Shown here one piece after another: positions 14,595-39,537 of a stretch of DNA of 61,757 bases (position 1 is its first letter; each line of letters begins with the position of its first letter). Source of the stretch: a virus; the IMG/VR virus record IMGVR_UViG_3300005563_000038, positions 1-61,757 of that record; one strand, written 5' to 3'. The translations under genes and the position numbers were made by a program. The notes below the pieces were generated by a model. That model was not told the origin of the DNA. It worked only from the letters and a program-made list of their open reading frames with translations, and ran no database searches.

Positions 14595-14629
14595 TCAAAC
14601 GTGTTTCAAACACATATCACAGTCTTGAG
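14595..14629 (+). promoter_or_regulatory. Phage promoter candidate (CACATATCAC class) before the tubulin gene
   Basis: TCAAA (14595-14599), then CACATATCAC at 14611-14620 and CTTGAG at 14624-14629. The same three boxes with identical spacing occur at 24542, 34161 and 39503, always before plus-strand genes. It would give the tubulin-like gene a leader of about 160 bases. Confidence 0.75.
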
Positions 14630-14787
14630 CGTCAAATGGTTAGGGCTTCGAAGCGTCGCCCTTCATACCAAGAGCGCGGCAAACGTGGTGACTTTTGTCA
14701 CTTGGCTGCGCTATTTCTCTGAGAGAGGACACCGTAACGGAACAACCTCGTATTCCCAACACCTTTTCAATTGAGAGTCTTACCACC

Positions 14788-15774
14788 ATGACCCAACAAA
14801 AAGGCAGCATCAGGCTGTACGCCTGTGGCGGCGCCGGTATCAACATCGGCAAGATGCTCGAGCAGTTCCGCGGTGTCAAGGAACCTGGCATGGGTGTCCT
14901 GGACCAGGTCTACATCGACACGTCCCACTCCAACGCCAAGGGCGTCAACCCCGACCACTCGTACTTCTTCGACGACATGGACGGCTCGGGCAAGGTCCGC
15001 AAGGAAAACCACGAAGAGATCGCCGCCCGCACGCGCGAGATCCTCCTGAAGTTCCCGCCGCAAGACCTGAACATCGTCCTGAACTCGGGCAGCGGCGGCT
15101 CCGGCTCGGTCATCGGCCCGTCGCTGGTCTCCGAACTTCTGGAACGGAACCTGCCCGTGGTCGTGATCATGATCGGCACGACCGACACGCGCCTGGAGAT
15201 CGACAACACCGTCAAGACGATCAAGTCCTACGAAGCCATCGCCAAGCTGCGCAAGACGCCGGTCGCGATGGGCTACTTCCAGAACTCGGTGGCCACGCCG
15301 CGTCCCAAGGTCGACACGCTGGTGCTCCAGCTGGTCTCGGCCCTGATGACCATCTACAGCCGCGAGAACTCCGAGCTCGACTCCAAGGACCTGCACAACT
15401 TCCTGCACTTCGACCTGGTCACCACGTTCAAGCCGCAGCTCGCCTCGCTGCTGGCCGTCAACGGCGAGTTCCCGGCCCACGTCACGACCGGCTCGGTCAT
15501 CTCGGTGGCCAGCCTGGCCAAGGAAGGCGAGATCACCTCGCTGCCGTTCGTGCCCGACTACCAGTGCACCGGCTTTCTGCCGCCCGACGCTCACGAGCGC
15601 GTCCAGAAGGCCTCGCCCGTCTACCTCGTCACGGTCGCCGACCTGCCCGGCGCGGCCATGAAGGAGCTGACCGCGGCTCTGACCAACCTGGACGAGGCCC
15701 AGCGCGCTCGCGTCCAGACGGCCAAGATCCTGAATGACTCGGACAAGGCCACCGACTCTGGCCTGGTGTTCTAA
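14788..15774 (+). CDS. phuZ: Tubulin/FtsZ-like GTPase (PhuZ type)
   Basis: PhuZ-type tubulins polymerise in the infected cell, centre the phage nucleus and carry capsids to it. In the 328-residue product ACGGAGIN at 12-19 matches the first tubulin/FtsZ glycine loop. NSGSGGSGSVIGP at 99-111 occupies the place of the signature GGGTG(S/T)G, though it is diverged (SGSGGSG). YIDTSH near 42-47 fits the next nucleotide-contact strand. The length agrees with phiKZ gp39 (about 315 residues). The C-terminal tail is acidic/polar (LNDSDKATDSGLVF), as in filament-forming phage tubulins. ATG at 14788 has GAGAG upstream. It is monocistronic between the promoter motif at 14595 and the terminator at 15786, with very strong codon bias. 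Confidence 0.85.
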   Translation: MTQQKGSIRLYACGGAGINIGKMLEQFRGVKEPGMGVLDQVYIDTSHSNAKGVNPDHSYFFDDMDGSGKVRKENHEEIAARTREILLKFPPQDLNIVLNSGSGGSGSVIGPSLVSELLERNLPVVVIMIGTTDTRLEIDNTVKTIKSYEAIAKLRKTPVAMGYFQNSVATPRPKVDTLVLQLVSALMTIYSRENSELDSKDLHNFLHFDLVTTFKPQLASLLAVNGEFPAHVTTGSVISVASLAKEGEITSLPFVPDYQCTGFLPPDAHERVQKASPVYLVTVADLPGAAMKELTAALTNLDEAQRARVQTAKILNDSDKATDSGLVF

Positions 15775-15785
15775 TCACCACATAA

Positions 15786-15823
15786 CCCCTGCTGAACCGT
15801 AACTGGTCAGCAGGGGTTTATGT
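15786..15823 (+). terminator. Hairpin terminator with TTTATGT tail
   Basis: CCCCTGCTGA (15786-15795) pairs with TCAGCAGGGG (15807-15816), followed by TTTATGT. It ends the tubulin-like transcript. Confidence 0.85.
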
Positions 15824-15964
15824 CCGCCTCAGCATACAGTCTAGAACTCACCAGAAACGCCTACAAGCGATTATTTTCGACCCGGCAAGGGCTGGGTACG
15901 TTCCTAGTGAGTTTTTACAAATTGCCTCATTCCTTTGTCTAACCCTGACCACCACCCTAAAGCG

Positions 15965-16405
15965 ATGAAAAAGCATCCGACCTATGTTGTCCCGATGGAC
16001 GCCATGGTGGAAGAGATTCGCCTGGCTGCGGTTGAGGAAAGTCAAGTCCTTAGCCTCATTTATCCATCTGACCCGGTATTCAAACCGGGCGAAATCGTCA
16101 CAGCAGGAAAGTTCCAAGATCAGTGGATTCGTCGCGCCATGGACGATCCGCATGTTCGCTCGTTGGTCATGCACCTGGAGCAGGCGCTGTTTGCGCGACT
16201 GCTTCAAGACGTGTACCTCGTCTCAACCCTCAATGTCGCGAGGATCAATCTCGACGCTTTTCGCAACCGTCTGAAGCGCGATCACCAGGTCGACGATGAA
16301 CTCTTGTTTCGCCAGGTGTTTGGCGGTTACATGAAGTTCTCGCACGTGCCTTCAGATGTCAAGCTTGGCTACGATGGACTGTCGCTCTATCTGCAAGCTG
16401 TCTAG
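15965..16405 (+). CDS. Unknown small protein (146 aa)
   Basis: ATG at 15965 is chosen over an in-frame TTG at 15935; neither has a good ribosome site. The product begins MKKHPTYVVPMDAMVEEI, is helical and charged, with LVMHLEQALFARLLQDVYLV near residue 75, and has no recognised domain. It is the first of eight tightly packed plus-strand genes up to 19858. An inverted repeat (AACTCAC and GTGAGTT) lies in its leader around 15846-15918. Confidence 0.75.
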   Translation: MKKHPTYVVPMDAMVEEIRLAAVEESQVLSLIYPSDPVFKPGEIVTAGKFQDQWIRRAMDDPHVRSLVMHLEQALFARLLQDVYLVSTLNVARINLDAFRNRLKRDHQVDDELLFRQVFGGYMKFSHVPSDVKLGYDGLSLYLQAV

Positions 16406-16423
16406 ACCTCCAAACCAGAAGTC

Positions 16424-17236
16424 ATGAAAGCCCTCTCCATTGGACAAACCTCGCAAGTGATCCAGCGTGGTATCTTGATCGACATCTCCGATTTGGCCCA
16501 AGCCATCGAAGAAGAGTTCGGTGAGATCTTTCTGCCGTACGAGCCCGGGTGGTACCACCAGCTCGACGAAGAACATCCGATCATGCCCGACATGGTCAAA
16601 GGCGTGCCTCAGATCTACCACACCAAAGGTGGGGCGACGGTGGCGCCGTGGGGCGAACAAGTGACTGTCGTCGCTGACCCCAACCAGGCCAAGAGCTCGG
16701 TCTACAACCAGGACAACGAAATGGTCCTGTCGGTGTATGACCAAGAATCTGCCCGCAAACACTACCCGTACGCCATCCGTACGATCTGCTCGCGCCGACC
16801 ACGCCTGCCCGTCAACGGAGCCAAGGTCGTCTACGAGTACATCAGCTGGATCATCGACCACGCCTGTGAATGGCAGCCGATGGACACGCCCTTCGAGCAG
16901 TTCGTCAAGCACCTGATCCGGCCCGAAGCCCTCGAAGCTGCCGAGATCCGGGAGGTCGATTGGACCGATGTACCCGGCCAGCGCCCCAAGGTCAACCATG
17001 TCAACGACTCGAACGTGCCACACGTCGAGCGGGGCAACAAGTTGATCGACGCGCTCACCGATCGCCTGCAGTTTTACTGCGCTCACCTGCGTCTGACGCT
17101 GGACGCCTTCATGGGGATCAGCACGTGGGAAACCTACCAGGTCACCAATCGCGGCATCAGCACGATCGTGATCGAAAAGCTCGGGGACTACCGCGTCCTC
17201 GAATGGGAACGACTCAAAAAGGAAGGCAAGATCTAG
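16424..17236 (+). CDS. Unknown protein (270 aa)
   Basis: ATG at 16424, 18 bases after the previous stop. The 270-residue soluble product has aromatic motifs (EPGWYHQLDEEHP, VVYEYISWIIDHACEWQPMD) and a charged C-terminus (VLEWERLKKEGKI). No catalytic motif is obvious. Second gene of the 15965-19858 run; it may be part of a virion or host-takeover module, but nothing in the sequence decides this. Confidence 0.87.
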   Translation: MKALSIGQTSQVIQRGILIDISDLAQAIEEEFGEIFLPYEPGWYHQLDEEHPIMPDMVKGVPQIYHTKGGATVAPWGEQVTVVADPNQAKSSVYNQDNEMVLSVYDQESARKHYPYAIRTICSRRPRLPVNGAKVVYEYISWIIDHACEWQPMDTPFEQFVKHLIRPEALEAAEIREVDWTDVPGQRPKVNHVNDSNVPHVERGNKLIDALTDRLQFYCAHLRLTLDAFMGISTWETYQVTNRGISTIVIEKLGDYRVLEWERLKKEGKI

Positions 17237-17239
17237 GTC

Positions 17240-17707
17240 TTGCAGGGGGTGCCACTCTTGATTCCTGATAGCACAACTTACCTGCCGGTATTGCTGAGCG
17301 TGCACGATGTCATGATGTACATTCGTGATTCGCTGCCCACCGCCGGCGTCGATTTGAACCCGATCATCACGGCCATGCTTGACAAGGTCGTGCGCAACCG
17401 CGTGAACACCTACGGGTTGTTCATGGGACCACTCGGGGCCTACAAGGTCCAAGCTCCTGAGAACCTCAGGATGGATGACCTGACCATCGACATGCACCTG
17501 CACGAAGCAGAAGTGTATCTGATCGACATGCTGGCTGCGGCGCTGCCGCACGCCCCGATGGACATGAAAGACTTCTACTACGTCTACCCGCGTGGAGAAG
17601 ACCAAACCAACCTGATCGTCTATGTCCCGATGGATAAATCCCAGTGCCCGCCAGCGCTCCATGGCAAACTGGTCCCAGCCGCAGCAGTTCGTCATACCGC
17701 TCGCTGA
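17240..17707 (+). CDS. Unknown protein (155 aa), non-ATG start
   Basis: No ATG opens this frame. Candidates are TTG at 17240 or TTG at 17258; the latter has GGGGGTG nine bases upstream and is the better-supported start. The product (from IPDSTTYLPVLLSVHDVMMYI) has helical segments and an acidic middle (MDDLTIDMHLHEAEVYLIDML). Its 3' end overlaps the next gene by 47 bases. No family is recognised. Third gene of the small-gene run. Confidence 0.7.
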   Translation: MQGVPLLIPDSTTYLPVLLSVHDVMMYIRDSLPTAGVDLNPIITAMLDKVVRNRVNTYGLFMGPLGAYKVQAPENLRMDDLTIDMHLHEAEVYLIDMLAAALPHAPMDMKDFYYVYPRGEDQTNLIVYVPMDKSQCPPALHGKLVPAAAVRHTAR

Positions 17708-18089
17708 ACACGGCACGCTTGGCCAAGAGTTCTCCGATCGGTTCTTCTTCTACGACAACGGGTTGAAGGACGCGATCGAGCAGATTCTCAGAGGGTATGT
17801 CCATACTGCCGATTCCATGGAAGACCATACGGGCTCGCCCTATGCGCCAATCCTGGAAGACATGGACCGGTATCTGAACGCAGTCCACGATTGCAACGCC
17901 GAACCCCAAGGAGGTTTTGGTGACTTGTACTTTGCCACGCAAATGGCTTGTGAATATCTGGACATCTACATGTACGGAATCATGAACCACTTCTTTGGTA
18001 AGGGTGAATTTCGAATCCTGGAAGCCAAGGACTTGAATCCCCAGCACTCCGATAGATACGAATATCTGATCACGGTGAAATTTGCATGA
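17661..18089 (+). CDS. Unknown small acidic protein (142 aa)
   Basis: The ATG at 17661 (MANWSQPQQFVIPL) lies inside the end of the preceding gene; an upstream in-frame ATG at 17622 is also possible. The product is acidic and aromatic (FSDRFFFYDNGLKDAIEQI, YLDIYMYGIMNHFFGKGEF), without catalytic or membrane signatures. Its last codons overlap the next start as ATGA. The overlaps on both sides point to one translationally coupled unit. Confidence 0.78.
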   Translation: MANWSQPQQFVIPLAEHGTLGQEFSDRFFFYDNGLKDAIEQILRGYVHTADSMEDHTGSPYAPILEDMDRYLNAVHDCNAEPQGGFGDLYFATQMACEYLDIYMYGIMNHFFGKGEFRILEAKDLNPQHSDRYEYLITVKFA

Positions 18090-18526
18090 CTCCTCGCAAG
18101 TTGAGTATAGTGCGTCACCCTGATCCTGAGTTGTTAATAGTCGAGGGTGGCGACTGCTTGCACGACCTCCAGCAGTGTCTGCGTCGCAATCCCGAGTTCG
18201 ATATCGACGTGGTCATGGACCACTTGATCGATTGCATCTTCGAATACAGAACGGTTGAAAACGAGTTGTTGCACCTCAAGAGCACGTTGCTCAGAGTCGG
18301 TGCGTATGACCCGGGCCCCGTTCGCCATGATCGGGGAATGCTCTATGAAGCCTTTGACGACGAAGTCTTTACTTTGGAAGACCTCCACTGGAAAGCGGTG
18401 CGCGTCGGGCTCGAGCTCAAGACCCTTTTCAAGCGGCTCAAGCTGTTTGAAGAGGACATCCTCAGATACCAACATAGTAGGATTATAGGTGATCGAACTA
18501 TCATCCTTCGCAGAAGGAGACGATGA
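18086..18526 (+). CDS. Unknown small protein (146 aa)
   Basis: Starts in an ATGA overlap with the previous stop. The 146-residue product is leucine- and histidine-rich and mostly helical, with amphipathic stretches (LDLHWKAV-type and LKTLFKRLKLFEEDILRYQ). It ends with a run of arginines (ILRRRRR) that could bind nucleic acid. The purine-rich AGAAGGAGA encoding that tail doubles as the ribosome site of the next gene, a visible economy of sequence. Confidence 0.8.
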   Translation: MTPRKLSIVRHPDPELLIVEGGDCLHDLQQCLRRNPEFDIDVVMDHLIDCIFEYRTVENELLHLKSTLLRVGAYDPGPVRHDRGMLYEAFDDEVFTLEDLHWKAVRVGLELKTLFKRLKLFEEDILRYQHSRIIGDRTIILRRRRR

Positions 18527-18527
18527 C

Positions 18528-19139
18528 ATGCCCGAAGACCTTCCCGAGAAAGAGCGTCGCACCTACGTCGACCCTGCCCCGGAAATGCCGCGCTTTGTCA
18601 TCATGGATCTCCGTGATGAAACACTGACGTTTTGCAATGGCATCCGCCAGATGACCGAACTTGGCATCGACATCCCCACGGCCACGGCCGAGGTGATCGA
18701 CACGATCCAGCACGAAAAGGACGCCGCCTACGAGGTCGCCTACACGGCCTACGAGATGACACCTCCTGACGAAGACTCCCTGATGAACCAGGAAGTCCAC
18801 AAGTACCTGAAGCTGCGCGAGGACTTCGCCATGGCGCTGTACCGCCAGTTTCAGCTGTTCAAGATGTACGTCAACGGCTTGCTGTTTTACGAGCTACACC
18901 ACATCGACCCCAACGTCCTCGTGCTCAACAAGCTCGAGATCCCGACCAACCGACATGACCGACTCCTGCGAGCAAACACACGTCAAGTTGATCTTGCCCA
19001 TCAACGACGCCTACAGGCAGCTGCACCTCAGCCTGAGAAGGTATTCGGCCAGCCAGGCAAGGTTGGAGGAATCCTTCGGCGAGGTGATCAGGTACCTGCT
19101 GGCCCAGCACTGGTTCTACGAGGTCGAAAGCTTCCTTGA
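18528..19139 (+). CDS. Unknown acidic protein (203 aa) with odd C-terminus
   Basis: ATG at 18528 has a near-perfect ribosome site (AGAAGGAGA at 18512-18520). Residues 1 to about 140 look like a normal acidic helical protein (EVIDTIQHEKDAAYEVAYTAYEM). From about residue 143 (NRHDRLLRANTR onward) the composition changes to Arg/Gln/Ala/Gly-rich, typical of out-of-frame translation. This tail overlaps the next gene by 185 bases. An ATGA at 18955 would make a normal stop-start junction if the frame shifted just before it. Either a genuine long overlap, a frameshift or a sequencing error is possible. Confidence 0.72.
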   Translation: MPEDLPEKERRTYVDPAPEMPRFVIMDLRDETLTFCNGIRQMTELGIDIPTATAEVIDTIQHEKDAAYEVAYTAYEMTPPDEDSLMNQEVHKYLKLREDFAMALYRQFQLFKMYVNGLLFYELHHIDPNVLVLNKLEIPTNRHDRLLRANTRQVDLAHQRRLQAAAPQPEKVFGQPGKVGGILRRGDQVPAGPALVLRGRKLP

Positions 19140-19401
19140 AGAAGAGGCTCTCGAAGATTCCATCTTCGATGAGCTTCAGATTCACGATCGAGCCGAACGC
19201 CTGGCGTTCCTGGAGGGTTTCTTCAGGTTCGCCGTCCAATTGCGCTCTGCCCTGATTCAGTACCGGGTTCCCCAGCGATGGGTGCAACACGAACTGATCA
19301 AGGCGGGCGCCATTGGTCACCGTGACTACACGGCGATTTTTTTTGAGAGTGTCCCGGTTCCCAAAGGCTGCTTTCCCCGCGGTTTTGGCTGGCGTCGATA
19401 A
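18955..19401 (+). CDS. Unknown acidic helical protein (148 aa)
   Basis: ATG at 18955 (MTDSCEQTHVKLILPIND). The product is helical and acidic, with a Glu-rich stretch (VESFLEEEALEDSIFDEL) near residue 60 and a more basic C-terminus. Coding character is convincing throughout, including the section shared with the preceding frame, so this frame is the real one there. No recognised domain. Seventh gene of the 15965-19858 run. Confidence 0.8.
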   Translation: MTDSCEQTHVKLILPINDAYRQLHLSLRRYSASQARLEESFGEVIRYLLAQHWFYEVESFLEEEALEDSIFDELQIHDRAERLAFLEGFFRFAVQLRSALIQYRVPQRWVQHELIKAGAIGHRDYTAIFFESVPVPKGCFPRGFGWRR

Positions 19402-19444
19402 TCGTGTGATCAGATCTTCGCACCCCACCAACACGGAATAACCC

Positions 19445-19858
19445 ATGGCTGATACTCCCTACCCGTTCGAGGTCAAGAAAGTCTACAGCTTCACGCTGTA
19501 TCCGGCCACGGTGATGCCGGGGGACTTCACGAACGTCACCGTGATGGCCATCATGGACTACGACAGCGCGCTGCAGTTCGCTGACATCCCGGCCATCCAC
19601 CCCAACGTCTTTCCCTACCTGCCCTCGGGCACCCCCAACGATCCGACCCAGTACGACTACCTCAAGGTCAAGCTGTCGTCCGGTGTGGTCACGGTCCTGG
19701 GCATTCCCTGGATCAACGAAGCCACGATCGCTCTGGTCCGGTCGCTGACGGCCAACGTCGTCATCGAAGGGGTCAGCAACAACGACGCCCCGCGCATCCT
19801 GGCCGCTCTCGTGCAGAACGGTTTCAATAACGTGAACGTCAAGATCGTCAGCGCCTGA
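19445..19858 (+). CDS. Small virion-like beta protein (137 aa)
   Basis: ATG at 19445. The product (MADTPYPFEVKKVYSFTLYP) is beta-rich with strand-turn patterns (MPGDFTNVTVMAIMDYDS, KLSSGVVTVLGIPWINEATI) and strong codon bias, unlike the rest of the preceding small-gene run. It looks like a virion or major small structural component. It closes the run; a long untranslated stretch follows up to the terminator at 20199. Confidence 0.88.
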   Translation: MADTPYPFEVKKVYSFTLYPATVMPGDFTNVTVMAIMDYDSALQFADIPAIHPNVFPYLPSGTPNDPTQYDYLKVKLSSGVVTVLGIPWINEATIALVRSLTANVVIEGVSNNDAPRILAALVQNGFNNVNVKIVSA

Positions 19859-20198
19859 CGGGTGCGGTGATAAAAAACACACAGCCGAATATGCTGTGCA
19901 CAAAGGGAGCCGGTCACTCCCAGCTCGTCATCTGTGCTTCGAACAGTGTCTGGGGTTACCTCCTTTCCCTCGGATACCTAGTAAGAGTTGGTGAAAGCTT
20001 TTGAGCACGAGACCTTGAGTTGCGTTAGCGCATCGAATCCGACTCTACCTGTGGTGGAGGCTCGTTCAATTTAGCGGTGGCACCCCGCTGAGTTGTCCGA
20101 TCACCTCTGGCAGACCCGGGGAGAAACAGACCCGTCGTCCTAGATGTCTTGACGTTGATTCGGTTTTCTGTGTGAAGAAGTGAAAGACCCGGTAGGGT

Positions 20199-20229
20199 GG
20201 GGGTGGTTTCGGCCACCCCCTTCTTATCG
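20199..20229 (+). terminator. Hairpin terminator
   Basis: GGGGGTGG (20199-20206), loop TTTCGG, CCACCCCC (20213-20220), then TTCTTATCG. It ends transcription from the 15965-19858 run after a long untranslated trailer. Confidence 0.75.
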
Positions 20230-20266
20230 TCCAGTTTCTTTGAGGTGTTGGCTTTTTCTGCTATTG

Positions 20267-20338
20267 AAGGATAGATACGAGAGATAACGCGTAGCCGTCA
20301 GGTGGCGCCACATCCCTCGTATCTATCCTTTCTTTTTG
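20267..20338 (+). terminator. Long perfect 15-bp hairpin with U-rich tail
   Basis: AAGGATAGATACGAG (20267-20281) is exactly inverted at 20316-20330, followed by TTCTTTTT. The 34-base loop holds its own palindrome (GTGGCGCCAC). This can act as a terminator or attenuator; it stands 76 bases before the next gene. Confidence 0.6.
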
Positions 20339-20405
20339 CCGTCTAGCTCGACAGTGCCTGGTTTTTCCGTATGGTATAGCCTCTTGACGTATCAAGGTGA
20401 ACACC

Positions 20406-20879
20406 ATGCTAGCCTGGCTCACACACCTGCGGGTAGAGCTCGACTGGGCATTGAATGCCTTTCTGAGCGATCGACACCCTGCTTCCATGATCTTGAAGTC
20501 CTTGGGCTTCAAACCTGCTAGCTTTCTGGCCCGTAAGGAATACTCGGTCTGGAAAGAAGGCTTTCGGTTGTGCTCAGTCCAGGAACTTGCCACTCCGGCT
20601 GACATGCATCCGCTCATCATGCGAGTTCGACTGTTTGTGGCGCACGAGCGCTCAACCAAAGAGAACCCGCAGCCTTTGTTTCGTGTCTATTGGTCGTTTC
20701 ACTTGCATGACAAAAAGAGGACTCCGACCAAACATGCGTTCATTTCCGAGCCGTTTCCGCTCAAAGCCCTGACGGCGGTGCTCAGGGCCTCCAAGCATCC
20801 GGCTCAGGCTGCCAGTGCGATGATTCGCATTGCAGAAAGCTCCAAGGCAAATGCACGTTGGGCAGAAGCCACGCCATAG
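20406..20879 (+). CDS. Unknown small basic protein (157 aa)
   Basis: ATG at 20406 is preceded by AAGGTGA at a good distance; an in-frame GTG at 20397 is less likely. The product is basic and His/Ala-rich (MLAWLTHLRVELDWALN; later RVYWSFHLHDKKRTPTKHAF) with no catalytic motif. It is isolated between the long hairpin upstream and a terminator directly downstream. Codon bias is weak, suggesting a recently acquired or low-expressed accessory gene. Confidence 0.82.
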   Translation: MLAWLTHLRVELDWALNAFLSDRHPASMILKSLGFKPASFLARKEYSVWKEGFRLCSVQELATPADMHPLIMRVRLFVAHERSTKENPQPLFRVYWSFHLHDKKRTPTKHAFISEPFPLKALTAVLRASKHPAQAASAMIRIAESSKANARWAEATP

Positions 20880-20881
20880 AC

Positions 20882-20911
20882 GGAGAGGGGGCAACCCCTC
20901 TCCTTTTATGC
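20882..20911 (+). terminator. Hairpin terminator with TTTTATGC tail
   Basis: GGAGAGGGG (20882-20890), loop GCAA, CCCCTCTCC (20895-20903), then TTTTATGC. It separates the 157-residue gene from the DNA polymerase C-half. Confidence 0.85.
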
Positions 20912-20967
20912 CGGCTCTTTTTTAGAGGTTGATCTCATCCTTTGTACCCGATATAAACCCAACACCA

Positions 20968-23151
20968 ATGACAGCCGTAAATCCCTTTGTTCTGGAAAAG
21001 GACAAGTACGTACGGGATCTGAATCTGTTCAAGCACTACATCGAAGATCAGGCGCTGTACCTGTCGCTGATGTTTGACAAGTCCATCGACTACTGTCGCG
21101 ACTTTGTCATCCGGCAACTCAAGCCCGGTGGTCGGTTCCCTTTCAGGGATCCCAAGGTGGTGTATGCAGAGCGTGACAACCAGGCTGATCGCGTCGAAAA
21201 AGAAGGCACTCTGAACGGGTTCCTGTCCGATACGATCAAAAACGAGCACCTGATCGCGCCCAACTTCTCTACGTACCTGCCCGCCAAGGTCGAGAAATCG
21301 TACCTTGCCGCATTCATCGATTTTAACGTTGCAGCCCGCGGCAAAGCCAAAAAGGCGATGTTCGCCGCGGAAATGGCCGGCGACGAGATCCTAAAGCAGT
21401 TCAAGGAGAACGAGCAAAAGAGTCGCAAGATTCGAAACAACTCGATTTCCGGGGGTCACACGACCCCGTCCACCCCGCTGGTCAACAAGACCAGTCACTC
21501 GACCCTCACGTCTGTGTGTCGGTCCACCTCGGGCTACGGCAATGCGAACAACGAAAAGCTGCTGTGCGGCAATCGGCATTACTGGAATCCCAAGATCGCC
21601 CTGAACAACATCGTCTCGATTGTACGGAACACGGATTACGATAAGCTCCAACGTGCCATGGAGCTGTTTGGCATCCGTGCCCCCACTGTCGAAGAAACGC
21701 TGCACGTCGTCACGGTCTCGGCTAACAAGTACTGCCCGTCCGAGTACGCGACCAAGACCTACCGCGCCCTGATCGAAAAGTTGACCGCTATCCAGCGGGC
21801 CGCGTTTGTCTACACTGGTGACCTGTACCACCTGGCCAAGTACAACGACCAGATGATGCGCACCTTCATCTCCAAGCTGTCGGCCAAAGTCATGGAAGAC
21901 TGCCCGGATGCCACCAAGGTCATCAAGAGCCACCGTGACGAGTACCACATGCTGGCCGAGCTCTATTTCCCCAATGAGCTCGTGGCCATGTCTGAAGAGA
22001 TGTTCCCGGCGTCCGATCCGAAGGTCAAGAACCGGTCGGTGACGATGAAAGACATTCAAGGCACCAAGCTCGAAGAGTGGATTGCCTCGACTGTCAAGAA
22101 CATCGCCGCCGTGGTCGAAGAGTATCGCCCGTTCATCGAAGCGATCATGGTCACGTCCAATGTGCCTGCGTCCCTGGCCTTTTTCCCAGACTCCGTGCGG
22201 GATGCGGCGGTCACCTCCGATACCGACTCGACCATCTTTACGGTGCAAGACTGGGTGTTTTGGATGCACGGCGAGGATCCGGGCTTCAATGAAAAGACCG
22301 ATGCGACCGGCGCGGCCATGGTGTTTCTGGCTGCCGAGTCGATCACTCACGTGCTGGCCCGCATGAGCGCGAACTTTGGTATCGAGACGAGTCGCATCCA
22401 CCAGGTCGCGATGAAAAACGAGTTCATGTTCCCGGTCTTTGCGGTCACCCCGATCGGCAAGCACTACTACGCGATGATCTCTGCCCAAGAAGGCAACGTC
22501 TTCCGTAAGTACAAACTCGAAAAGAAGGGCGTGCACCTGAAGTCGTCCAATGTGCCCAAGCAGATCATCGACCAAGCCGAGATGATGATGCGTGACATCC
22601 TGGAGACGATCAAGCGCGGGGAAAAGCTCAGCCTGATGAAGTACCTGCGTGAAGTCGCCGACACCGAGCGTGAGATCCAGCGCTCGATCCTGGCCGGTGA
22701 ATCGACCTACATGCGCAACGCCCAGATCAAGTCGGCCGACGCGTACACCAAGGGCGAGATGAATTCCCCGTACATGCACTACCACATGTGGCAGGCGTGC
22801 TTTGCCGACAAGTACGGTGATGCCCCCCATCCGCCCTATGCGTGCTCCAAGGTGGCCGTCACCATGGATTCGGCCACTGACTTTAAGACTTGGATTGCCA
22901 ACATCCAGGACAAAAAGATCGCCGCCAAGCTCGAAAAGTTCTTCAAGGACAACAACAAGACGACGATGACGGCCCTGCTGCTGCCCAAGCAAACGCTGGC
23001 CATCTCGGGCATGCCCACGGAAATCGCCCAGATCGCAGCCATCCGCCGCTCGGTCTACGACATCACGTCGGTGTTCTACATCGTGCTGGAGTCCATTGGC
23101 TACTACGTGGCCAACGACAATCTGACGACGCTTTGCATGGACAACTATTGA
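20968..23151 (+). CDS. Family B DNA polymerase, C-terminal half (fingers/palm/thumb)
   Basis: This 727-residue protein carries the second half of a family B replicative polymerase. RKIRNNSISGG at 153-163 fits motif B of the fingers (K-x3-NS-x-YG; Lys 154, Asn 158, Ser 159). SDTDST at 417-422 is motif C, whose aspartates bind the catalytic metals. There is no exonuclease and no motif A; both are found in the minus-strand protein at 56867-58588. The ATG at 20968 (MTAVNPFVLEKDKYV) is used; an upstream in-frame TTG abuts the only purine-rich site. The two halves must associate to form an active enzyme, as in the split gp43 of some Aeromonas T4-like phages. That they associate is inferred. Confidence 0.88.
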   Translation: MTAVNPFVLEKDKYVRDLNLFKHYIEDQALYLSLMFDKSIDYCRDFVIRQLKPGGRFPFRDPKVVYAERDNQADRVEKEGTLNGFLSDTIKNEHLIAPNFSTYLPAKVEKSYLAAFIDFNVAARGKAKKAMFAAEMAGDEILKQFKENEQKSRKIRNNSISGGHTTPSTPLVNKTSHSTLTSVCRSTSGYGNANNEKLLCGNRHYWNPKIALNNIVSIVRNTDYDKLQRAMELFGIRAPTVEETLHVVTVSANKYCPSEYATKTYRALIEKLTAIQRAAFVYTGDLYHLAKYNDQMMRTFISKLSAKVMEDCPDATKVIKSHRDEYHMLAELYFPNELVAMSEEMFPASDPKVKNRSVTMKDIQGTKLEEWIASTVKNIAAVVEEYRPFIEAIMVTSNVPASLAFFPDSVRDAAVTSDTDSTIFTVQDWVFWMHGEDPGFNEKTDATGAAMVFLAAESITHVLARMSANFGIETSRIHQVAMKNEFMFPVFAVTPIGKHYYAMISAQEGNVFRKYKLEKKGVHLKSSNVPKQIIDQAEMMMRDILETIKRGEKLSLMKYLREVADTEREIQRSILAGESTYMRNAQIKSADAYTKGEMNSPYMHYHMWQACFADKYGDAPHPPYACSKVAVTMDSATDFKTWIANIQDKKIAAKLEKFFKDNNKTTMTALLLPKQTLAISGMPTEIAQIAAIRRSVYDITSVFYIVLESIGYYVANDNLTTLCMDNY

Positions 23152-23156
23152 AGGCG

Positions 23157-23191
23157 GCATAAAGGGGAGCCCTCGGGCTCCCCGCTTATGC
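23157..23191 (-). terminator. Bidirectional hairpin between convergent genes
   Basis: GGGGAGCC (23164-23171), loop CTCG, GGCTCCCC (23176-23183). On the minus strand it is followed by TTTATGCC, on the plus strand by GCTTATGC. The plus-side TTA is also the stop codon of the minus gene, so the two signals overlap. Confidence 0.85.
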
Positions 23192-24541: not shown

Positions 24542-24577
24542 TGAAACTCGTTTCAGCCACATATCACAAGCTTGGAG
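24542..24577 (+). promoter_or_regulatory. Phage promoter candidate (CACATATCAC class) before the shell gene
   Basis: TGAAA at 24542-24546, CACATATCAC at 24558-24567 and CTTGGAG at 24571-24577, with the same spacing as the other strong copies. The next gene starts at 24918, so the leader would be about 340 bases, the longest of the set. Confidence 0.75.
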
Positions 24578-24917: not shown

Positions 24918-26924
24918 ATGTCGATTCACAACGACGATGACGACGACACCAACGGTGCCGCTCCGACTCCTTCGTCTCCGCCGCCTGCCGCCGCCGCTCC
25001 GGTGAGCCAGCCGCCGTCGCCGAGCACCCTGCTCGCCGCCAGCCAGCGCTCGCCCGCCCCGACCCCGGTCCCGGTCCCGCAACCTCCTCAACAGCAACGC
25101 CAATCCATGAACGCGAACGCATCCCCCCTGAGCTCCCTGTCCCTGCCCGGCAACCTGGCCCCGCTGTCGCTGACGCCGGCCGCCGACGCCATCAAGAACT
25201 TCGTCGAGACGGCCCAGAAGATCATCGGCACCCCCGGTGAAGGCTACGACGTCAAGCTGCTGGTCGTGTCCCACAACGACACGCCCATCACGCTGTTCGC
25301 CGCCTCCGTGGTCGTCGTGGTCCAGCACAAGGCGCAGCCCGATGCGGCCCTGGGCTACCACACCCTGATCATGGGCGACACCGCCGGCCCGATCCAGAAC
25401 GAGTTCGTGCCGATCCCCGGTCACGGCCAGGTCGAAGTCGTGCGCGTCGTGGGCGAGTCGTACAACGACGAGTACCGCGCGGCCGTGGCCACGATGCTGC
25501 AGAAGCACTTCCCCAAGGTCGATCCGAAGAAGATGTTCGACTCCGAAGGCCAGGTCGTGCCGGCCGGCTACAACGGCAAGGACGAATCGCTGGTGCGCGT
25601 CACCATCGCTTCGGCTCTCGTCGCCGCGGCCACGCTGCTGAACCAGAACACCCCGGGCTTCACGGACCTGTCCCTGATCGCCGGCGCCGAGAAGCTCCAG
25701 ACCGTCGCCAAGCTGCAGTTCGGCCAAGGCCAGACCGCCGACTCGGTCGGCCAGCCCCAGCGCACCGACATCAAGATCACCTTCTCCGAAGTCAGCGGCC
25801 AGGCGCGCCAGCAGAACCAGGGCCTGCAGTCCCTGAATTCCGGCCAGGTCCTCAAGCCCCTGCTGAACATCGGCGGCTTCACCGACCTGGTGTGGCACCC
25901 GTCGTCCGAGGTCACCGCGCACAACCCGTACGCGGCCGCCTACGGCACGCCGGCGCAGCACCAGTCGATGCCCTACCTGTACCAGCCGCGCTTCGTGATC
26001 ACCCACGTCGAAGCTCCGCAGCTGCGCACGATGCCGGGCACCCTGCTGGGCCTGATCTCGACGCTGACCATGCGCGACAACAACAACTGGATGGCCTCGT
26101 TCACCCGCCCGACGGGTCCCGAGCAGGACATCCACGACATCGGCGCCATCGGCATCGAGGCCAACATCGGCCGCGATCCGTCGGGCTTCGGCAAGCCGTT
26201 CGAGACGCGCGCCGCGACGTTCAACGACGCCGAGCAAGCGCTCATGCTGCGTGCCTACGTGCGCCCCGAACTCGCGATCTCCATGGACGTCGACGAGTGC
26301 GGCCCGAGCACCTGGCTGACTTCCGCCTTCCTGGCGGCGGCCCGCAACAACCAGGCCGCGCACGACTTCATCCTGGAGTCGGCCAACCTGCTGACCAACG
26401 GCAACTTCGCCGCGCTGTGGAACCCGGCCTGGAAGATCGTCATCAACGACGAGTCCCGCGTGCACCTGGGTCACTACACGGACGGCAAGGGCAACGTGCG
26501 CGACATCCGCGACATCGACCACCTGTGCGTGCTCAACGTCCGTGGCGAGACCGATCCGCGCATCGCGCGCGACTGGTCCAACACCTGGGCCAAGATCGGC
26601 TACCCGATCGAGCTGCGCCTGCGTGAGCGCCTGCGCATCATGAACATGATCTCGAGCTCCATCGTGATCACGGGCTACGCGCATCGCATCACCTTCACCA
26701 CCAACTTCCTGAACACGCTCGAGCGCGCGATCGCGGCCACCGGCCTGTCCATCCGCGCCGACACGCCGTACCAGGACCTGGGCGACCAGGGCCGCGCCAG
26801 CGCCGACTGGCTGTCCGCGGGCGCTCTCGCCTCCGGCCAGTCCACGTTCACGCGCAGCTACGGCGGCCAGCAGAGCCAGGGCGGCGGCTCCGGTTCCAGC
26901 AGCTTCGGCCGCTGGAGCCGCTGA
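24918..26924 (+). CDS. Candidate phage nucleus shell protein (ChmA-like), 668 aa
   Basis: ATG at 24918 with AAAGGAAAGAG just upstream. The 668-residue product has a disordered acidic then Pro/Ala/Ser-rich N-terminus (about residues 1-75), a long folded core, and a Gly/Gln/Ser-rich C-terminal tail ending FGRWSR. Core segments include LLVVSHNDTPITLFAAS, GYHTLIMGDTAG, and IVITGYAHRITFTTNFL near the end. Flexible tails around a core, this length, extreme codon bias, its own promoter and the following RNAP beta' gene all match what is known of ChmA (phiKZ gp54, 201phi2-1 gp105), which forms the lattice enclosing replicating phage DNA. I could not align it; a major capsid or other abundant protein is the alternative. 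Confidence 0.55.
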   Translation: MSIHNDDDDDTNGAAPTPSSPPPAAAAPVSQPPSPSTLLAASQRSPAPTPVPVPQPPQQQRQSMNANASPLSSLSLPGNLAPLSLTPAADAIKNFVETAQKIIGTPGEGYDVKLLVVSHNDTPITLFAASVVVVVQHKAQPDAALGYHTLIMGDTAGPIQNEFVPIPGHGQVEVVRVVGESYNDEYRAAVATMLQKHFPKVDPKKMFDSEGQVVPAGYNGKDESLVRVTIASALVAAATLLNQNTPGFTDLSLIAGAEKLQTVAKLQFGQGQTADSVGQPQRTDIKITFSEVSGQARQQNQGLQSLNSGQVLKPLLNIGGFTDLVWHPSSEVTAHNPYAAAYGTPAQHQSMPYLYQPRFVITHVEAPQLRTMPGTLLGLISTLTMRDNNNWMASFTRPTGPEQDIHDIGAIGIEANIGRDPSGFGKPFETRAATFNDAEQALMLRAYVRPELAISMDVDECGPSTWLTSAFLAAARNNQAAHDFILESANLLTNGNFAALWNPAWKIVINDESRVHLGHYTDGKGNVRDIRDIDHLCVLNVRGETDPRIARDWSNTWAKIGYPIELRLRERLRIMNMISSSIVITGYAHRITFTTNFLNTLERAIAATGLSIRADTPYQDLGDQGRASADWLSAGALASGQSTFTRSYGGQQSQGGGSGSSSFGRWSR

Positions 26925-27144: not shown

Positions 27145-28638
27145 ATGGGCGTTCATCTGGAACTAGTCAATTTTGACATAGAGTTCAATCGTCGCTCCGG
27201 CGGCGAGGCAGTCATCTTGAATGACCTGCCGATGTACACCAAGAAAGATCGTGAAGACTTCGATCGCCTGGTGTTCACCAAGTTCTCTGGCGACTTGCTC
27301 AGTTCAGTGCCGTCGTGTGACCGCGGCTGCTCGACGGGTGAGTACAACAAGAACATCATCTGTCCCGAATGTGGTACGCCGGTGCTACCCATTCTCGATC
27401 AAGACATCGAACCGGCCACGTGGATTCGTGCACCCCATGGCGTCGATGCGCTGATCAACCCGATGATCTGGGAGATGTTGTCCCAGCACTTCAAGTTCGG
27501 GAAATTCAACATCATCCATTTCCTCTGCGATACCGAATACAAGCCGGGGTTCATCCCCGACAAGATCGGCATGGTACTGGAGTTGTACGTGCAAGGCCAG
27601 CCCATCGAACGCGGGCTGAACTACTTCGTGCGCAACTTCTGGGAGATCATGGAGGGTCTGTTCAGCCTGAAGCCGTTCAAGAAGCCGCCGGGCCGCGCCC
27701 AGGTGCTTCGGCGAGTGCTGGACGACTATCGCGACTGCATCTTCTCGCAGTTCATCCCGATCACCCACCGGTCACTGTTGGTGCTCGAGCCCAACGAGCT
27801 CGGCATCTTCATCGACAAGGTCACGATCGGCGGCATGGACGCGATTCGCATGTTGGCCGGCATCGACACCGATGCCAACGTCTACAGCGTGCGGGTGCGC
27901 GAGAACCGGACTGCCAAGACGATCAACGAACTGACGATCTTCCAAAAGCAGACCTACGACAACAATTTCATCAGCAAGAAGGGCGTGTTCCGAAAGCACG
28001 TCTTTGCGACGCGGTCGTACTTCAGTTTCCGGGCTGTCGTGTCTTCGATCACGGACAAGCACCACTACCGCGAGATCTACATCCCGTGGGACATCGCGTG
28101 CTCCTTGCTGCGGGTGCATCTGCTCAACAAGCTGATGCGCATGGACTACACCCAGCCCGAAGCGGTCATGTTCCTCGAAGCGTATGCTCGCAAGAGCCAT
28201 CCGCTGCTCAAGGGCATGTTCGACGAGCTGATCGCAGAAGCTCCCAGCGGTATCGGGATCTGCTGCACGCTCAATCGGAATCCGTCTCTGGCACGCGGTT
28301 CCATCGAGCAGGTCTACATTTCGCGAATCAAGGAACCGGTGGAGGGCGAGACGCTCGACCCGACCGTGTCTTTGTCCATCCTGATCGTCAAGGCGCTCAA
28401 CTGCGACTTCGATGGCGATGCGCTGCAGTTCACGCTGGCGCTGGACCAACGGATCGAGAATGCGCTCGATGCCCTGGCTCCGGCCATGTCGCTGTTCGGT
28501 CTGGACAACCCGCGTCAACTGGCCAACACGGCCTCTTTGTCCAAGCCGGTGGTGGCCAACATCGCCGAGTGGATCGAAGAGCCTGCATTCGAAGACCCCA
28601 GCAAGCTGAAGTACATGCAACAGCTTGCCATGGCCTGA
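27145..28638 (+). CDS. RNA polymerase beta' subunit, N-terminal half
   Basis: phiKZ-like phages encode RNA polymerases whose beta and beta' are each divided into two proteins. This 497-residue product carries the beta' active centre: NCDFDGDAL at 419-427 matches the universal NADFDGD loop, whose three aspartates (421, 423, 425) hold the catalytic magnesium. CDRGC (58-62) and CPEC (73-76) form the N-terminal zinc ribbon. Its size suits the non-virion enzyme (phiKZ gp74 as I remember it), but the virion form cannot be excluded. ATG at 27145 follows AAAAAGGAGAG. It leads the run 27145-29298. Its C-terminal partner is probably 41870-43894. Confidence 0.9.
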   Translation: MGVHLELVNFDIEFNRRSGGEAVILNDLPMYTKKDREDFDRLVFTKFSGDLLSSVPSCDRGCSTGEYNKNIICPECGTPVLPILDQDIEPATWIRAPHGVDALINPMIWEMLSQHFKFGKFNIIHFLCDTEYKPGFIPDKIGMVLELYVQGQPIERGLNYFVRNFWEIMEGLFSLKPFKKPPGRAQVLRRVLDDYRDCIFSQFIPITHRSLLVLEPNELGIFIDKVTIGGMDAIRMLAGIDTDANVYSVRVRENRTAKTINELTIFQKQTYDNNFISKKGVFRKHVFATRSYFSFRAVVSSITDKHHYREIYIPWDIACSLLRVHLLNKLMRMDYTQPEAVMFLEAYARKSHPLLKGMFDELIAEAPSGIGICCTLNRNPSLARGSIEQVYISRIKEPVEGETLDPTVSLSILIVKALNCDFDGDALQFTLALDQRIENALDALAPAMSLFGLDNPRQLANTASLSKPVVANIAEWIEEPAFEDPSKLKYMQQLAMA

Positions 28639-30517: not shown

Positions 30518-30550
30518 GGATTTCCTCCCTGCTTCTGAGAAGAGGCTTTG

Positions 30551-30586
30551 AAGCCAGGCGGGGTTCGCGCCCTGCCTGGCTTTTTT
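30551..30586 (+). terminator. Classical intrinsic terminator, U6 tail
   Basis: AAGCCAGGC (30551-30559), 14-base loop, GCCTGGCTT (30574-30582), then T-run. It follows the 227-residue gene. Confidence 0.9.
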
Positions 30587-30614
30587 GATGCAACAGGTAT
30601 TTTGGAGCTAAGAA

Positions 30615-32317: not shown

Positions 32318-32327
32318 GGAGCCGTAG

Positions 32328-33161: not shown

Positions 33162-33294
33162 GCGTGTAGGGTGAGTTGGTTTTTACTTCGTGCCCCCATG
33201 ATTTGTAAACAACCAACCACACCCAAACAACGCTTTCCCGCAATGGGGCAGTATACGCCCTAACCTCAACCAACCTCAAAGATAGGTACTCAAA

Positions 33295-34017
33295 ATGGCC
33301 GGAGATTTCCGTCCGCCTCCGCGGAAAAAAGTGATCCTGGATCACGCCAAGTTCCACCTGCGCGCGCCCAATGCCGCTGGCAAGACCGCATCGCTGCAGT
33401 GGCAGCTGATCTCGTCGAACCCGCGCATGGTCGTGTGGACCAACGATCCGAACGACACGATCAACAACGGCAAGATCCAGGCCGCCATGGGCGTGGCCAC
33501 GTTCTTCAGCGTGCTGCGCCTGATCGAGCAAGCCGCCAACTCCGAAGGTCCCTACAAGGAGAAGGTCGACAACAAGAACTTCACCTGGGCCGGCGGCAAG
33601 CGTTCCGACGAAGCGGTGGTCGAGTCCTCGACGATCATCCAGAAGGACGAAGATGGTCTGATCACCGTCTGCCTGTCCGCACCGCGTCGTCCCCAGATCC
33701 GCTTCCCGTTCATCAACGAGGACTTCCACCACTTCGTGCACCGTGATGGTTCGGTGTTCACCAAGGGCGAAGCCTCCAAGCTGACCGCGCTCGCGTTCTG
33801 TGACATGCTGCGCCCGATCTACGCGGCGCTGCTGGTCAAGGAATACGTCGAACCCCCGCCCAAGGAAGATCGCAACGGCGGCGGTGGTAACCGTGGTGGC
33901 GGTGGAGGCGGCGGTGGCCGCAGCTACAGCGGCGGCGGTGGCGGCGGTGGCAACCGCGGCGGTGGCGGCGCCCCGGCCGGTGGTGGCGCCGACGACGACG
34001 AAGGCATCGGCTGGTAA
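33295..34017 (+). CDS. Candidate single-stranded DNA-binding protein (240 aa)
   Basis: ATG at 33295 after an imperfect hairpin in the leader. Residues 1 to about 185 make a basic beta-rich domain (RKKVILDHAKFHLRAPN; SLQWQLISSNPRMVVWTND) followed by an acidic strand-rich half. Residues about 190-230 are a long Gly/Asn/Arg linker. The end GGGADDDEGIGW is acidic with a terminal aromatic residue, the architecture of bacterial SSB tails, which recruit replication partners through their acidic tip. Strong codon bias and a U-tract terminator suggest high expression. The family was not recognised; RNA binding is an alternative. Confidence 0.6.
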   Translation: MAGDFRPPPRKKVILDHAKFHLRAPNAAGKTASLQWQLISSNPRMVVWTNDPNDTINNGKIQAAMGVATFFSVLRLIEQAANSEGPYKEKVDNKNFTWAGGKRSDEAVVESSTIIQKDEDGLITVCLSAPRRPQIRFPFINEDFHHFVHRDGSVFTKGEASKLTALAFCDMLRPIYAALLVKEYVEPPPKEDRNGGGGNRGGGGGGGGRSYSGGGGGGGNRGGGGAPAGGGADDDEGIGW

Positions 34018-34036
34018 TTCGCCGACGCAGGCAACT

Positions 34037-34079
34037 GCATAAGGGCCCTGGAGACCACTACGGTCTCCAGGGCTTTTTG
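34037..34079 (+). terminator. 12-bp hairpin terminator, U-tract on plus strand
   Basis: GCCCTGGAGACC (34045-34056), five-base loop, GGTCTCCAGGGC (34062-34073), then TTTTTG. On the minus strand the same stem is followed by CCTTATGC. It ends the 31187-34017 unit. Confidence 0.9.
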
Positions 34080-34160
34080 TCCTGTAGAAAATTTCTCCAT
34101 ATATAAGGGCAAGTTTTACACCTTTGAGGAATAGAGTAGCGTGTGTTGTCTAGCGAAGAT

Positions 34161-34195
34161 TGAAAAGGGAATCAGACACATATCACGCTATTGAG
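34161..34195 (+). promoter_or_regulatory. Phage promoter candidate (CACATATCAC class)
   Basis: TGAAA (34161-34165), CACATATCAC (34177-34186), ATTGAG (34190-34195), spaced as in the other copies. It precedes the gene at 34276 with a leader of about 85 bases. Confidence 0.75.
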
Positions 34196-34275
34196 TCACT
34201 AGAAATGACGCTAGGGCTGAGCGCATAAAGTGCACATTCGCTTCAGTCCAACTGCAAACAAACCGGGTGCCATGC

Positions 34276-36045
34276 ATGCATATCAAAATCGATTTCAGTA
34301 ACCGGACGCCCTCGGCGGCCGGGCTGGTCATCTCGCATCGAAGTGAGCAACTCGTCTGGGACATTCCCAGTCAAGATGTCATGGCTGACTTCGACATCTT
34401 TGCCGAGATCAACGGCTATTGGGAGCAGTTGCCCGAAGCCGTGCAAGACAAGATCTTCAGTATCTACGCCAAGATCAACGAATCGCTGATGAACGACTGG
34501 GTGTTCGAAAACCAGATCTCGACGCTGCGTCCGTTGATCGCTGACCTGTTTCGGGCGCACCCCGAAGAAGACGTCTACATCTGGGTGTGGACCAAGGCCA
34601 ACGTGTCGGTGCCTTCGGGTCCCAACGGGATCAAGCGCACCTACGATCCCAAGCGTGATGACCACCGCATCGAGCGCACGTACATCGAAGACGACTATCG
34701 CAAGCTGATCGCGCTGTCGGTCGTGCTGCGGATCATGATCCCGATCTGGGGTCAGTTCATGCTCAATTCGAAGTCGCGCACCGACAACATGTTCAAGGAG
34801 TATCAGGCGTTCAGCTTGCTGGCGCTGGCTCCGGTCATGCAGTGGGAAGCGATGAAGCGGTTCACTGTCTTTGTCAACTACACGCTGCCCAAGGATCGCG
34901 CGTTGGACGCGGTGATCATCTCGGGTCTGAGCTCCCACGATTTCCCGGACTGGGTGCTGGCCATGACGGTCGTGCGGCGGCTGTGTCGTGGCGACGTGCG
35001 GGGCAACAACCCGGACGCAACGCTGGTGGCGCACCTGTTCGTGTATCTGTCGCAGCGCTTGCGTTCGATCGAATCGACCACGGGCAAGATCATCGGCAAG
35101 ACCACGATCGCCGATCATGGCGAGTCCGACTCGAACCTGTCGGTGCTGGAGAACTTCAAGATCAAGGAGTCCGTGCCGGCTGGCGACATCGCCGGGGTGA
35201 GCTTCTACATCAACTTCCAGCTCCAGAAGGTCCTGAACGAAGAGCCGCTGGGTCCGCTGGCACTGGCCAACCGGCTGTGTCGCGACTGGGAAGCCGAAGC
35301 CCATGGCAAGCCGATCATCTTCGATCCGAAGTTCCCGCAGCTGATCCGCATGTCGCACCTGAGCGTGCAGGCGCTGGCCACCGAACGGCTGACCAAGGTC
35401 CAGGTCATGCTCTCGGCCTGGGTCATGAGCCGTTACGTGCCGATCCGCTCGATCCCCAATCTGCAGAAGACCGATCTGCTGGGCATCATCACGTTCGCTC
35501 AAGCCTATCTGTGGCACCACGGTCACAAGGAACTGGCTGCGCTGTGCAGCGCCGTCGGCCGCAACGAAGGCGAAGAGACCATGAGCGCGCTGGCCGTGTC
35601 CATGGATGCGATCGAAAAGCCCGAGATGGCCGAGCTCATCAAGCGCTTTCCGTATCGCAAGCGTACCAGCAGCCGTTCGAAGACGGCCCGCTCGACGATT
35701 CCCGTGCTCTCGACCATCGACGACATGGTCGACATGGTGGCGCAGCAGTCCTGGAACTTGACCTTGCCCAAGGAATGGGTCAGTGTCATGACCGGACATG
35801 CCCGCAACCGGCGCTACAACGCGCCCTCCAACTTGCGGACCAAGCTGGCTCGACTTGTCATCGAGCTGGATGACCGCACGGCTCGCGTTCTGGGTGTGCG
35901 TGACACGATCTTCGATGTCACGCTCGAACAGTTCGCTGCCCGCGTGCGCACGGTGGCTGAAGACTACACCAGCCGAGATCGCGTGGCCGATGTCCCTTTC
36001 CAGGTGACGACAGCGCCGATCGACAATCCGTACGCCAACCTCTGA
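34276..36045 (+). CDS. Large unknown protein (589 aa), promoter-class partner of tubulin and shell genes
   Basis: ATG at 34276 (MHIKIDFSNRTP); an in-frame GTG at 34267 lacks a ribosome site. The 589-residue product is mainly helical, with Arg-rich segments (FPYRKRTSSRSKTARST near residue 460), a LFVYLSQRLRSIE helix and no catalytic motif. It shares the strong promoter motif with the tubulin, shell and RNAP genes. It lies between the RNAP beta' N-half and beta C-half. A non-catalytic subunit of the phage RNA polymerase (compare phiKZ gp68) is therefore possible, but that is a positional guess and a virion role is equally open. Confidence 0.85.
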   Translation: MHIKIDFSNRTPSAAGLVISHRSEQLVWDIPSQDVMADFDIFAEINGYWEQLPEAVQDKIFSIYAKINESLMNDWVFENQISTLRPLIADLFRAHPEEDVYIWVWTKANVSVPSGPNGIKRTYDPKRDDHRIERTYIEDDYRKLIALSVVLRIMIPIWGQFMLNSKSRTDNMFKEYQAFSLLALAPVMQWEAMKRFTVFVNYTLPKDRALDAVIISGLSSHDFPDWVLAMTVVRRLCRGDVRGNNPDATLVAHLFVYLSQRLRSIESTTGKIIGKTTIADHGESDSNLSVLENFKIKESVPAGDIAGVSFYINFQLQKVLNEEPLGPLALANRLCRDWEAEAHGKPIIFDPKFPQLIRMSHLSVQALATERLTKVQVMLSAWVMSRYVPIRSIPNLQKTDLLGIITFAQAYLWHHGHKELAALCSAVGRNEGEETMSALAVSMDAIEKPEMAELIKRFPYRKRTSSRSKTARSTIPVLSTIDDMVDMVAQQSWNLTLPKEWVSVMTGHARNRRYNAPSNLRTKLARLVIELDDRTARVLGVRDTIFDVTLEQFAARVRTVAEDYTSRDRVADVPFQVTTAPIDNPYANL

Positions 36046-39059: not shown

Positions 39060-39063
39060 GGCG

Positions 39064-39136
39064 GCATAAAACCACAAGCCTGCTGCGCAGCCAACCGATT
39101 AACCCGGGAGGCTGCGCAGCAGGATCAGTGGTTTCT
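39064..39136 (-). terminator. Large bidirectional hairpin between convergent genes
   Basis: CCTGCTGCGCAGCC (39079-39092) is exactly inverted at 39110-39123, with an outer ACCAC/GTGGT extension. On the minus strand it is followed by TTTTATGCC; on the plus strand by TTTCTTCTTTTC. It serves the plus gene ending at 39059 and the minus gene ending at 39145. Confidence 0.88.
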
Positions 39137-39144
39137 TCTTTTCT

Positions 39145-39486
39145 TCAGTTCAGCCGTGCTTTGGTGTATTCGGCTTGACGAATCACCTCGATCTCATCGG
39201 GGCTGGCGATGAGCAACTGCGTCAGATCGGCAGGAACGTCCTGTGGTGACGAGAAGTTGTTCATGCGCATGACCACCCAATGCAGATACAGAGGGATCCC
39301 CATGTCCAAGAGTAGCCCGTTCAGATCGAATTCGAACCGGTACGCCTTGATGGGGTCGACGTTCATCACCGTGGTGCTGGCAGCCCCACGCAGATACGTC
39401 ATGTGATCTTCCAAGACATTACGGAACTGGTCCGTATAGTAGGCGCCGGTGCCCTGGGCCACCAGCATGGAGTCTACGGCAGACAT
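39145..39486 (-). CDS. Small unknown protein (113 aa)
   Basis: ATG at 39486. The 113-residue product begins MSAVDSMLVAQGTGAYYTDQ and has an amphipathic middle (DLNGLLLDMGIPLYLHWVVMRMNN) and a helical end (EVIRQAEYTKARLN). No family is recognised; a small virion protein is likely from composition. It is a single minus-strand gene inserted between two plus-strand blocks and divergent from the RNAP beta promoter at 39503. Confidence 0.85.
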   Translation of the reverse strand: MSAVDSMLVAQGTGAYYTDQFRNVLEDHMTYLRGAASTTVMNVDPIKAYRFEFDLNGLLLDMGIPLYLHWVVMRMNNFSSPQDVPADLTQLLIASPDEIEVIRQAEYTKARLN

Positions 39487-39502
39487 TTGAAAGGCTTTCT
39501 AA

Positions 39503-39537
39503 TCAAAGGGTCTTGAGACACATATCACTGACTTGGT
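39503..39537 (+). promoter_or_regulatory. Phage promoter candidate (CACATATCAC class) before the RNAP operon
   Basis: TCAAA (39503-39507), CACATATCAC (39519-39528), CTTGG (39532-39536), in the common spacing. The RNAP beta gene starts at 39681, giving a leader of about 145 bases. Confidence 0.75.

Follow-up and report, generated by a model that had tools for sequence, protein, structure and literature searches.

Gene content of the fragment

The window analyzed here is the entire IMG/VR fragment IMGVR_UViG_3300005563_000038 (61.8 kb, 59% G+C). It encodes PhuZ, chimallin and the parts of the non-virion RNA polymerase (nvRNAP) that correspond to phiKZ gp55, gp68, gp71-73 and gp74, along with a DNA polymerase, an SbcD-like protein and a gp80-type subunit of the virion RNA polymerase (vRNAP), whose gene is the only vRNAP subunit gene within the fragment (Table 1). 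gp123, the fifth nvRNAP gene, lies outside the fragment. The order of the genes parallels phiKZ gp54 to gp75. Members of the Chimalliviridae are recognized by a chimallin gene, multisubunit nvRNAP genes and synteny with phiKZ, and all three are present (PF25677, phrog_4795, phrog_3295, phrog_3015, phrog_2987, phrog_3209). Because of this gene content and gene order, the fragment is assigned to a chimallivirus, i.e., a phiKZ-related, nucleus-forming phage that is uncultured and G+C-rich. Among named phages, Burkholderia phage FLC9 is the closest relative (nvRNAP beta, 49%), and the nearest contig is G001 (L017; beta identity 57%). When compared with named phages at the nucleotide level, the nvRNAP region gave no match.

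An earlier note on this DNA had listed a tubulin-like GTPase, a candidate shell protein, an RNAP beta/beta' operon and a 589-aa protein. The first two are phuZ (phrog_4733) and chmA (PF25677, phrog_4795), and the operon consists of the nvRNAP beta and beta' parts (phrog_3295, phrog_3015). The gene of the 589-aa protein is confirmed on the plus strand, and its product can now be named as a homolog of phiKZ gp68, the fifth nvRNAP subunit. The beta reading frame is best started at the ATG that aligns with the FLC9 start, not at 39612.

Upstream of the phuZ promoter, positions 10921-13560 form a lineage-specific block whose genes are shared, if at all, with the nearest contig only. Downstream, positions 15965-19139 hold small plus-strand genes that have no PHROG matches and are almost missing from relatives. 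If they are part of the phuZ early unit, these small genes are candidates for host-takeover proteins.

Table 1. Predicted early promoters and associated genes in the window. Promoter coordinates run from the T[C/G]AAA box to the predicted +1 G; leaders are counted from that G.
Feature	Position	Strand	Remarks
Predicted early promoter, phuZ unit	14595..14627	+	TCAAA box to predicted +1 G 14627; leader 161 bases; 38.2 bits pooled, 22.1 bits phiKZ-only
phuZ, phage tubulin	14788..15774	+	phrog_4733, E 4.7e-86
Predicted early promoter, chmA	24542..24574	+	predicted +1 G 24574; leader 344 bases; 37.9 bits pooled, 24.2 bits phiKZ-only
chmA, chimallin, major nuclear shell protein (phiKZ gp54)	24918..26924	+	PF25677, E 8.1e-38; phrog_4795, E 1.1e-90
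gp55 homolog, nvRNAP subunit	27145..28638	+	phrog_2987, E 1e-131; position after chmA as for phiKZ gp55
Predicted early promoter, gp68 unit	34161..34193	+	predicted +1 G 34193; leader 83 bases; 34.1 bits pooled, 8.6 bits phiKZ-only
gp68 homolog, fifth (sigma-like) nvRNAP subunit	34276..36045	+	phrog_3209, E 4e-103; phiKZ gp68 at equivalent place in gene order
Predicted early promoter, nvRNAP beta/beta' unit	39503..39535	+	predicted +1 G 39535; leader 146 bases to ATG 39681; 29.2 bits pooled, 18.8 bits phiKZ-only
nvRNAP beta part (phiKZ gp71-73)	39681..41873	+	phrog_3295, E 3.6e-202; start picked by FLC9 alignment
nvRNAP beta' part (phiKZ gp74)	41870..43894	+	phrog_3015, E 3.8e-181
gp80-type virion RNAP subunit gene	50253-51557	-	without early promoter

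Sequence and geometry of the four intergenic sites

The pattern T[C/G]AAA-N11-CACATATCAC-N3-[C/A]TTG occurs in the whole window at exactly the four places where the earlier note had put it (Table 1), on the plus strand only and with no mismatch. One hundred shuffles of the window contain no match, i.e., none is expected by chance, and the related pattern T[C/G]AAA-N11-CACATATCAC-N3-HTTG finds no further place in the window at up to three mismatches. Our own gene calls uphold the description of the sites as intergenic and facing plus-strand genes: all four lie between genes, each pointing into the next plus-strand gene. The leaders, given previously as 85-340 bases, are corrected to the values in Table 1. 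The chmA leader is long compared with those of relatives (56-141 bases; the median over all leaders of the relatives is 60 bases) and folds somewhat better than its shuffles (z -2.07); an Rfam search of the window and of this leader gave no match. A weak fifth copy had been proposed at position 700. Positions 700..709 (+) carry the 10-base core only, with one mismatch, and score -4.5 bits compared with 29-38 bits for the four sites; the G is correctly placed and the upstream boxes are missing, and this position was dropped as a promoter of the same class.

The conserved element is longer than first described. A TTT[C/G]AR-like element directly precedes the core at a constant distance, a feature also of the extended promoters in the literature; at the gp68 site its place is taken by AATCAG. 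The core CACATATCAC is present in all four sites, and in all four the terminal G of [C/A]TTG lies six bases past the core.

A matrix pooled from 12 other records gives the four sites 29-38 bits and the next place in the window 4.4 bits. Conservation in this pooled motif is strongest at ATAT (1.7-1.9 bits per base). Individual matrices were also refined in the 12 fetched records. Since some of these runs were seeded with window sites, a window-free test was made with a matrix whose only starting material was two phiKZ sites. With it the four places score 24.2, 22.1, 18.8 and 8.6 bits against a mean of 7.4 and a maximum of 16.0 in 50 shuffles, and three of the four exceed every shuffle. The fourth, the gp68 site, falls inside the shuffle range and is tied at 8.6 bits by position 8620, which is not a site; the pooled matrix separates it clearly (34.1 bits, compared with 4.4 bits for the next non-site). 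Position 8620 was rejected as weak (2.0 bits pooled) and not oriented. A matrix refined on the window alone was discarded; four sites were too small a basis, and the matrix had come to follow codon periodicity.

The sites might instead be read by the host enzyme, through sigma-70 or some other host sigma factor, as could be argued from their location between genes, their orientation and their partial A+T richness in a genome of 59% G+C. We consider this extremely improbable. The earlier description of the pattern as unlike sigma-70 holds at the three sites (14595, 24542 and 34161) inside the scanned interval 14400-34300, where there is no match resembling TTGACA - 16-18 bases - TATAAT and no excess over shuffles. 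The motif is also constant across records of 37-60% G+C from different hosts, and infection by phiKZ is resistant to rifampicin (PMC4666361).

Occurrence of the motif in related phages

A scan of IMG/VR (2.9 million contigs) with the bare pattern matched 12 records, 9 of them phiKZ-like; the pattern by itself retrieved phiKZ-related viruses from this collection. Chimallin and nvRNAP beta are both encoded by 7 of the 8 matched records larger than 100 kb, and the eighth, G003, has 46 phiKZ proteins matched elsewhere in its genome. G003 (L145-L153; 180 kb, 38.5% G+C) is phiKZ-like, contains none of the window genes and has a CACATAT core in most of its sites. G011 (L168-L170; 48 kb, 60% G+C), also phiKZ-like, has two intergenic sites at 18892 and 41097; both carry CACATATCAC, the same 10-mer as the four window sites. 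It has nearly no nucleotide overlap with the window and might represent a different segment of a closely related virus. The hits L005 and L011 (identical sequence) and L009 were set aside as chance matches; they are inside coding regions of A+T-rich contigs that have no phiKZ-like genes.

The matrices refined in the 12 records find 19-39 sites each. Most of these sites are intergenic and oriented, most have a G at the predicted start, and they are found predominantly on the main coding strand. In phiKZ 32-34 sites exceed 20 bits, which is near the 28 early promoters given for this phage in a review (PMC13282480). With its +1 columns masked, the phiKZ matrix detects a total of 82 sites across 12 non-phiKZ records, namely the window and 11 others. 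The earlier note had named equal frequency inside coding regions as an argument against its proposal; by site lists that depend on our own simple gene caller, 81 of these 82 sites are intergenic, 71 are oriented and 71 have a G at core+13 (binomial p 5e-72 and 2e-29), an outcome in favour of that proposal.

The same genes follow the motif in the relatives. Among records holding the region, an early-promoter match precedes chmA, gp68 and nvRNAP beta in 11/11 each and phuZ in 10/11, counts that rest on the same simple gene caller and are not independent, the effective number being smaller as the 11 records include close relatives such as G004 and G009. The remaining window genes combined account for about 16 cases. 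Examples are ATTTGAGATTTATATTACTAAATTG upstream of phiKZ chmA, ATTTGAGATCTATATTACTAACATG upstream of phiKZ gp68, and, in FLC9, CACATATCACTAACTTG before chmA and CACATATTACTAACATAG before beta. The motif remains unchanged in records spanning 37-60% G+C with differing hosts. Promoters of the early class are expected to be intergenic, to stand before early units and to be absent from virion-protein units, and the placement of the matches agrees with this, few other window genes carrying one.

A long, intergenic and repeated motif might instead be the binding site of a phage protein, used in partitioning, packaging or repression, or a dispersed repeat. Such a role is hardly credible given the strict orientation toward the next gene, the conserved G at the published start distance, and the fact that in every relative the motif is followed by the same orthologous genes even though the flanking sequence differs.

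A strong intrinsic terminator (27053-27078) separates chmA from the gp55 nvRNAP gene. phiKZ likewise has a G+C-rich hairpin and a T run immediately before gp55. No early promoter was found for gp55 in the window (best score -12.3), whereas one is present before gp55 in the relatives G009, G004, G007 and FLC6; gp55 may therefore depend on read-through in this virus.

The window core, ATATCAC in all four sites, differs from the published ATATTA[C/T]. At the fifth core base most phiKZ sites have a T, but a C is found in 5/32 phiKZ sites and in up to 14/16 sites in G007, so the C-containing core is within the range of the family, though it is not the published consensus. Its frequency increases with genome G+C (12 records; Spearman 0.78, p 0.003, uncorrected for kinship). 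Base-composition drift within a fixed geometry is enough to explain the C-containing core.

Proposed early transcription and comparison with known systems

Jumbo phages with two multisubunit RNA polymerases have an A+T-rich early promoter centred near -10 that is ascribed to the virion RNAP (PMC7598289), as is the early class of phiKZ-related phages (PMC7598289, PMC5312081). Mapped starts lie six bases past the element in AR9, phiKZ and phiR1-37 (PMC5312081). The window sites have the corresponding parts: an A+T-rich element of about ten bases that lies near -10 if the predicted start is used, a G six bases on, and, at a constant distance, an upstream extension made up of an A-rich box and TTTYARR. 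Directly observed are the motif and its geometry, the oriented placement between genes, and the conservation of the motif ahead of orthologous genes. Together with the published promoters these observations indicate, with a probability of about 93%, that the four sites are virion-RNAP early promoters of a phiKZ-related chimallivirus; start sites, timing and polymerase are predicted by comparison. The earlier suggestion of one temporal class served by a phage polymerase is supported by this comparison, the class being apparently the early one and the polymerase probably that of the virion.

A middle or late promoter read by the nvRNAP is a very improbable alternative. The motif does serve phage genes, and its TG at the predicted start recalls the late phiKZ T(-3)ATG(+1), but the final four bases are CTTG or ATTG in 4/4 sites and never TATG, which is not the late-promoter sequence. 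Among the genes behind the motif are those for subunits of the nvRNAP itself, which in phiKZ are made from early genes (PMC4666361), and every box of the layout agrees with the early class. The gp80-type vRNAP subunit gene has no motif, consistent with the middle-class vRNAP genes of phiKZ (PMC4666361).

If the four sites are early promoters, the virion RNA polymerase would enter with the DNA and read about 37 bases. Recognition would involve the upstream [C/G]AAA box, TTT[C/G]AR, the CACATATCAC core and an initiator with TG at its end. The core would probably melt around -10, and [C/A]TTG would be the initiator, its terminal G, six bases beyond the core, serving as +1. The four transcripts would yield PhuZ, ChmA of the nuclear shell, the gp68 homolog and nvRNAP beta/beta', after which the second polymerase, the nvRNAP, would take over the later genes. 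Since the four early units encode the tubulin, the shell and the larger part of the nvRNAP, the injected polymerase would build both the phage nucleus and the second polymerase. To our knowledge, neither a sigma factor nor a specificity factor has been described for the virion RNA polymerase.

A possible, if somewhat doubtful, extension is that an invariant core early regulon is common to nucleus-forming phages, made up of separately promoted phuZ, chmA, gp68 and nvRNAP beta units, that the injected polymerase must fire to obtain the nucleus and its own successor, and that in G+C-rich lineages the virion polymerase co-evolved with its promoters to the C-containing core CACATATCAC. If polymerase and promoters did co-evolve, recognition could be dissected via naturally diverged pairs.

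This kind of signal has already been published for OBP, N1M2, 201phi2-1 and phiKZ, and it is not a new kind of promoter. New here are the lineage, the C-containing core and the conserved set of four promoters. For an uncultured, G+C-rich chimallivirus, the programme of early transcription could be read, provisionally, from sequence alone. The extended geometry is retained from 37 to 60% G+C, the conserved set (shell, tubulin, gp68, beta) points to the first products of the injected polymerase, and promoter recognition by the virion polymerase could be studied on these naturally diverged versions.

Among published early promoters with this layout, that of Pseudomonas phage OBP is BSHAWWWWWTTTYARRYAKATATTATYWWADTG; those of Klebsiella phage N1M2 and Pseudomonas phage 201phi2-1 are similar, and the spacing matches (PMC7058600). 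These predicted promoters share with the window sites the A-rich box, TTTYARR and the TG end (PMC7058600), but have ATATTAT or ATATTAC where the window has ATATCAC, and their upstream A/T tracts are partly G/C here. phiKZ early promoters are alike in the three boxes, the spacing, the ATAT core, the G six bases on, and the sites before chmA, gp68 and the gp71-73/gp74 unit. They differ in having mostly [C/G]TATATTAC, compared with CACATATCAC in 4/4 sites here, and phiKZ phuZ is without its own promoter, downstream in a longer unit, whereas phuZ here has one. In FLC9, whose sites were found here and are not annotated, the chmA site is identical in core and end (CACATATCAC-TAA-CTTG), although most FLC9 sites have ATATTAC or ATATAAC. 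The AR9 early promoter, AAATATATATTAT-(6N)-G, is also an A+T-rich element near -10 with a start G six bases on (PMC5312081), but AR9 has uracil DNA, no phage nucleus and a different box sequence.
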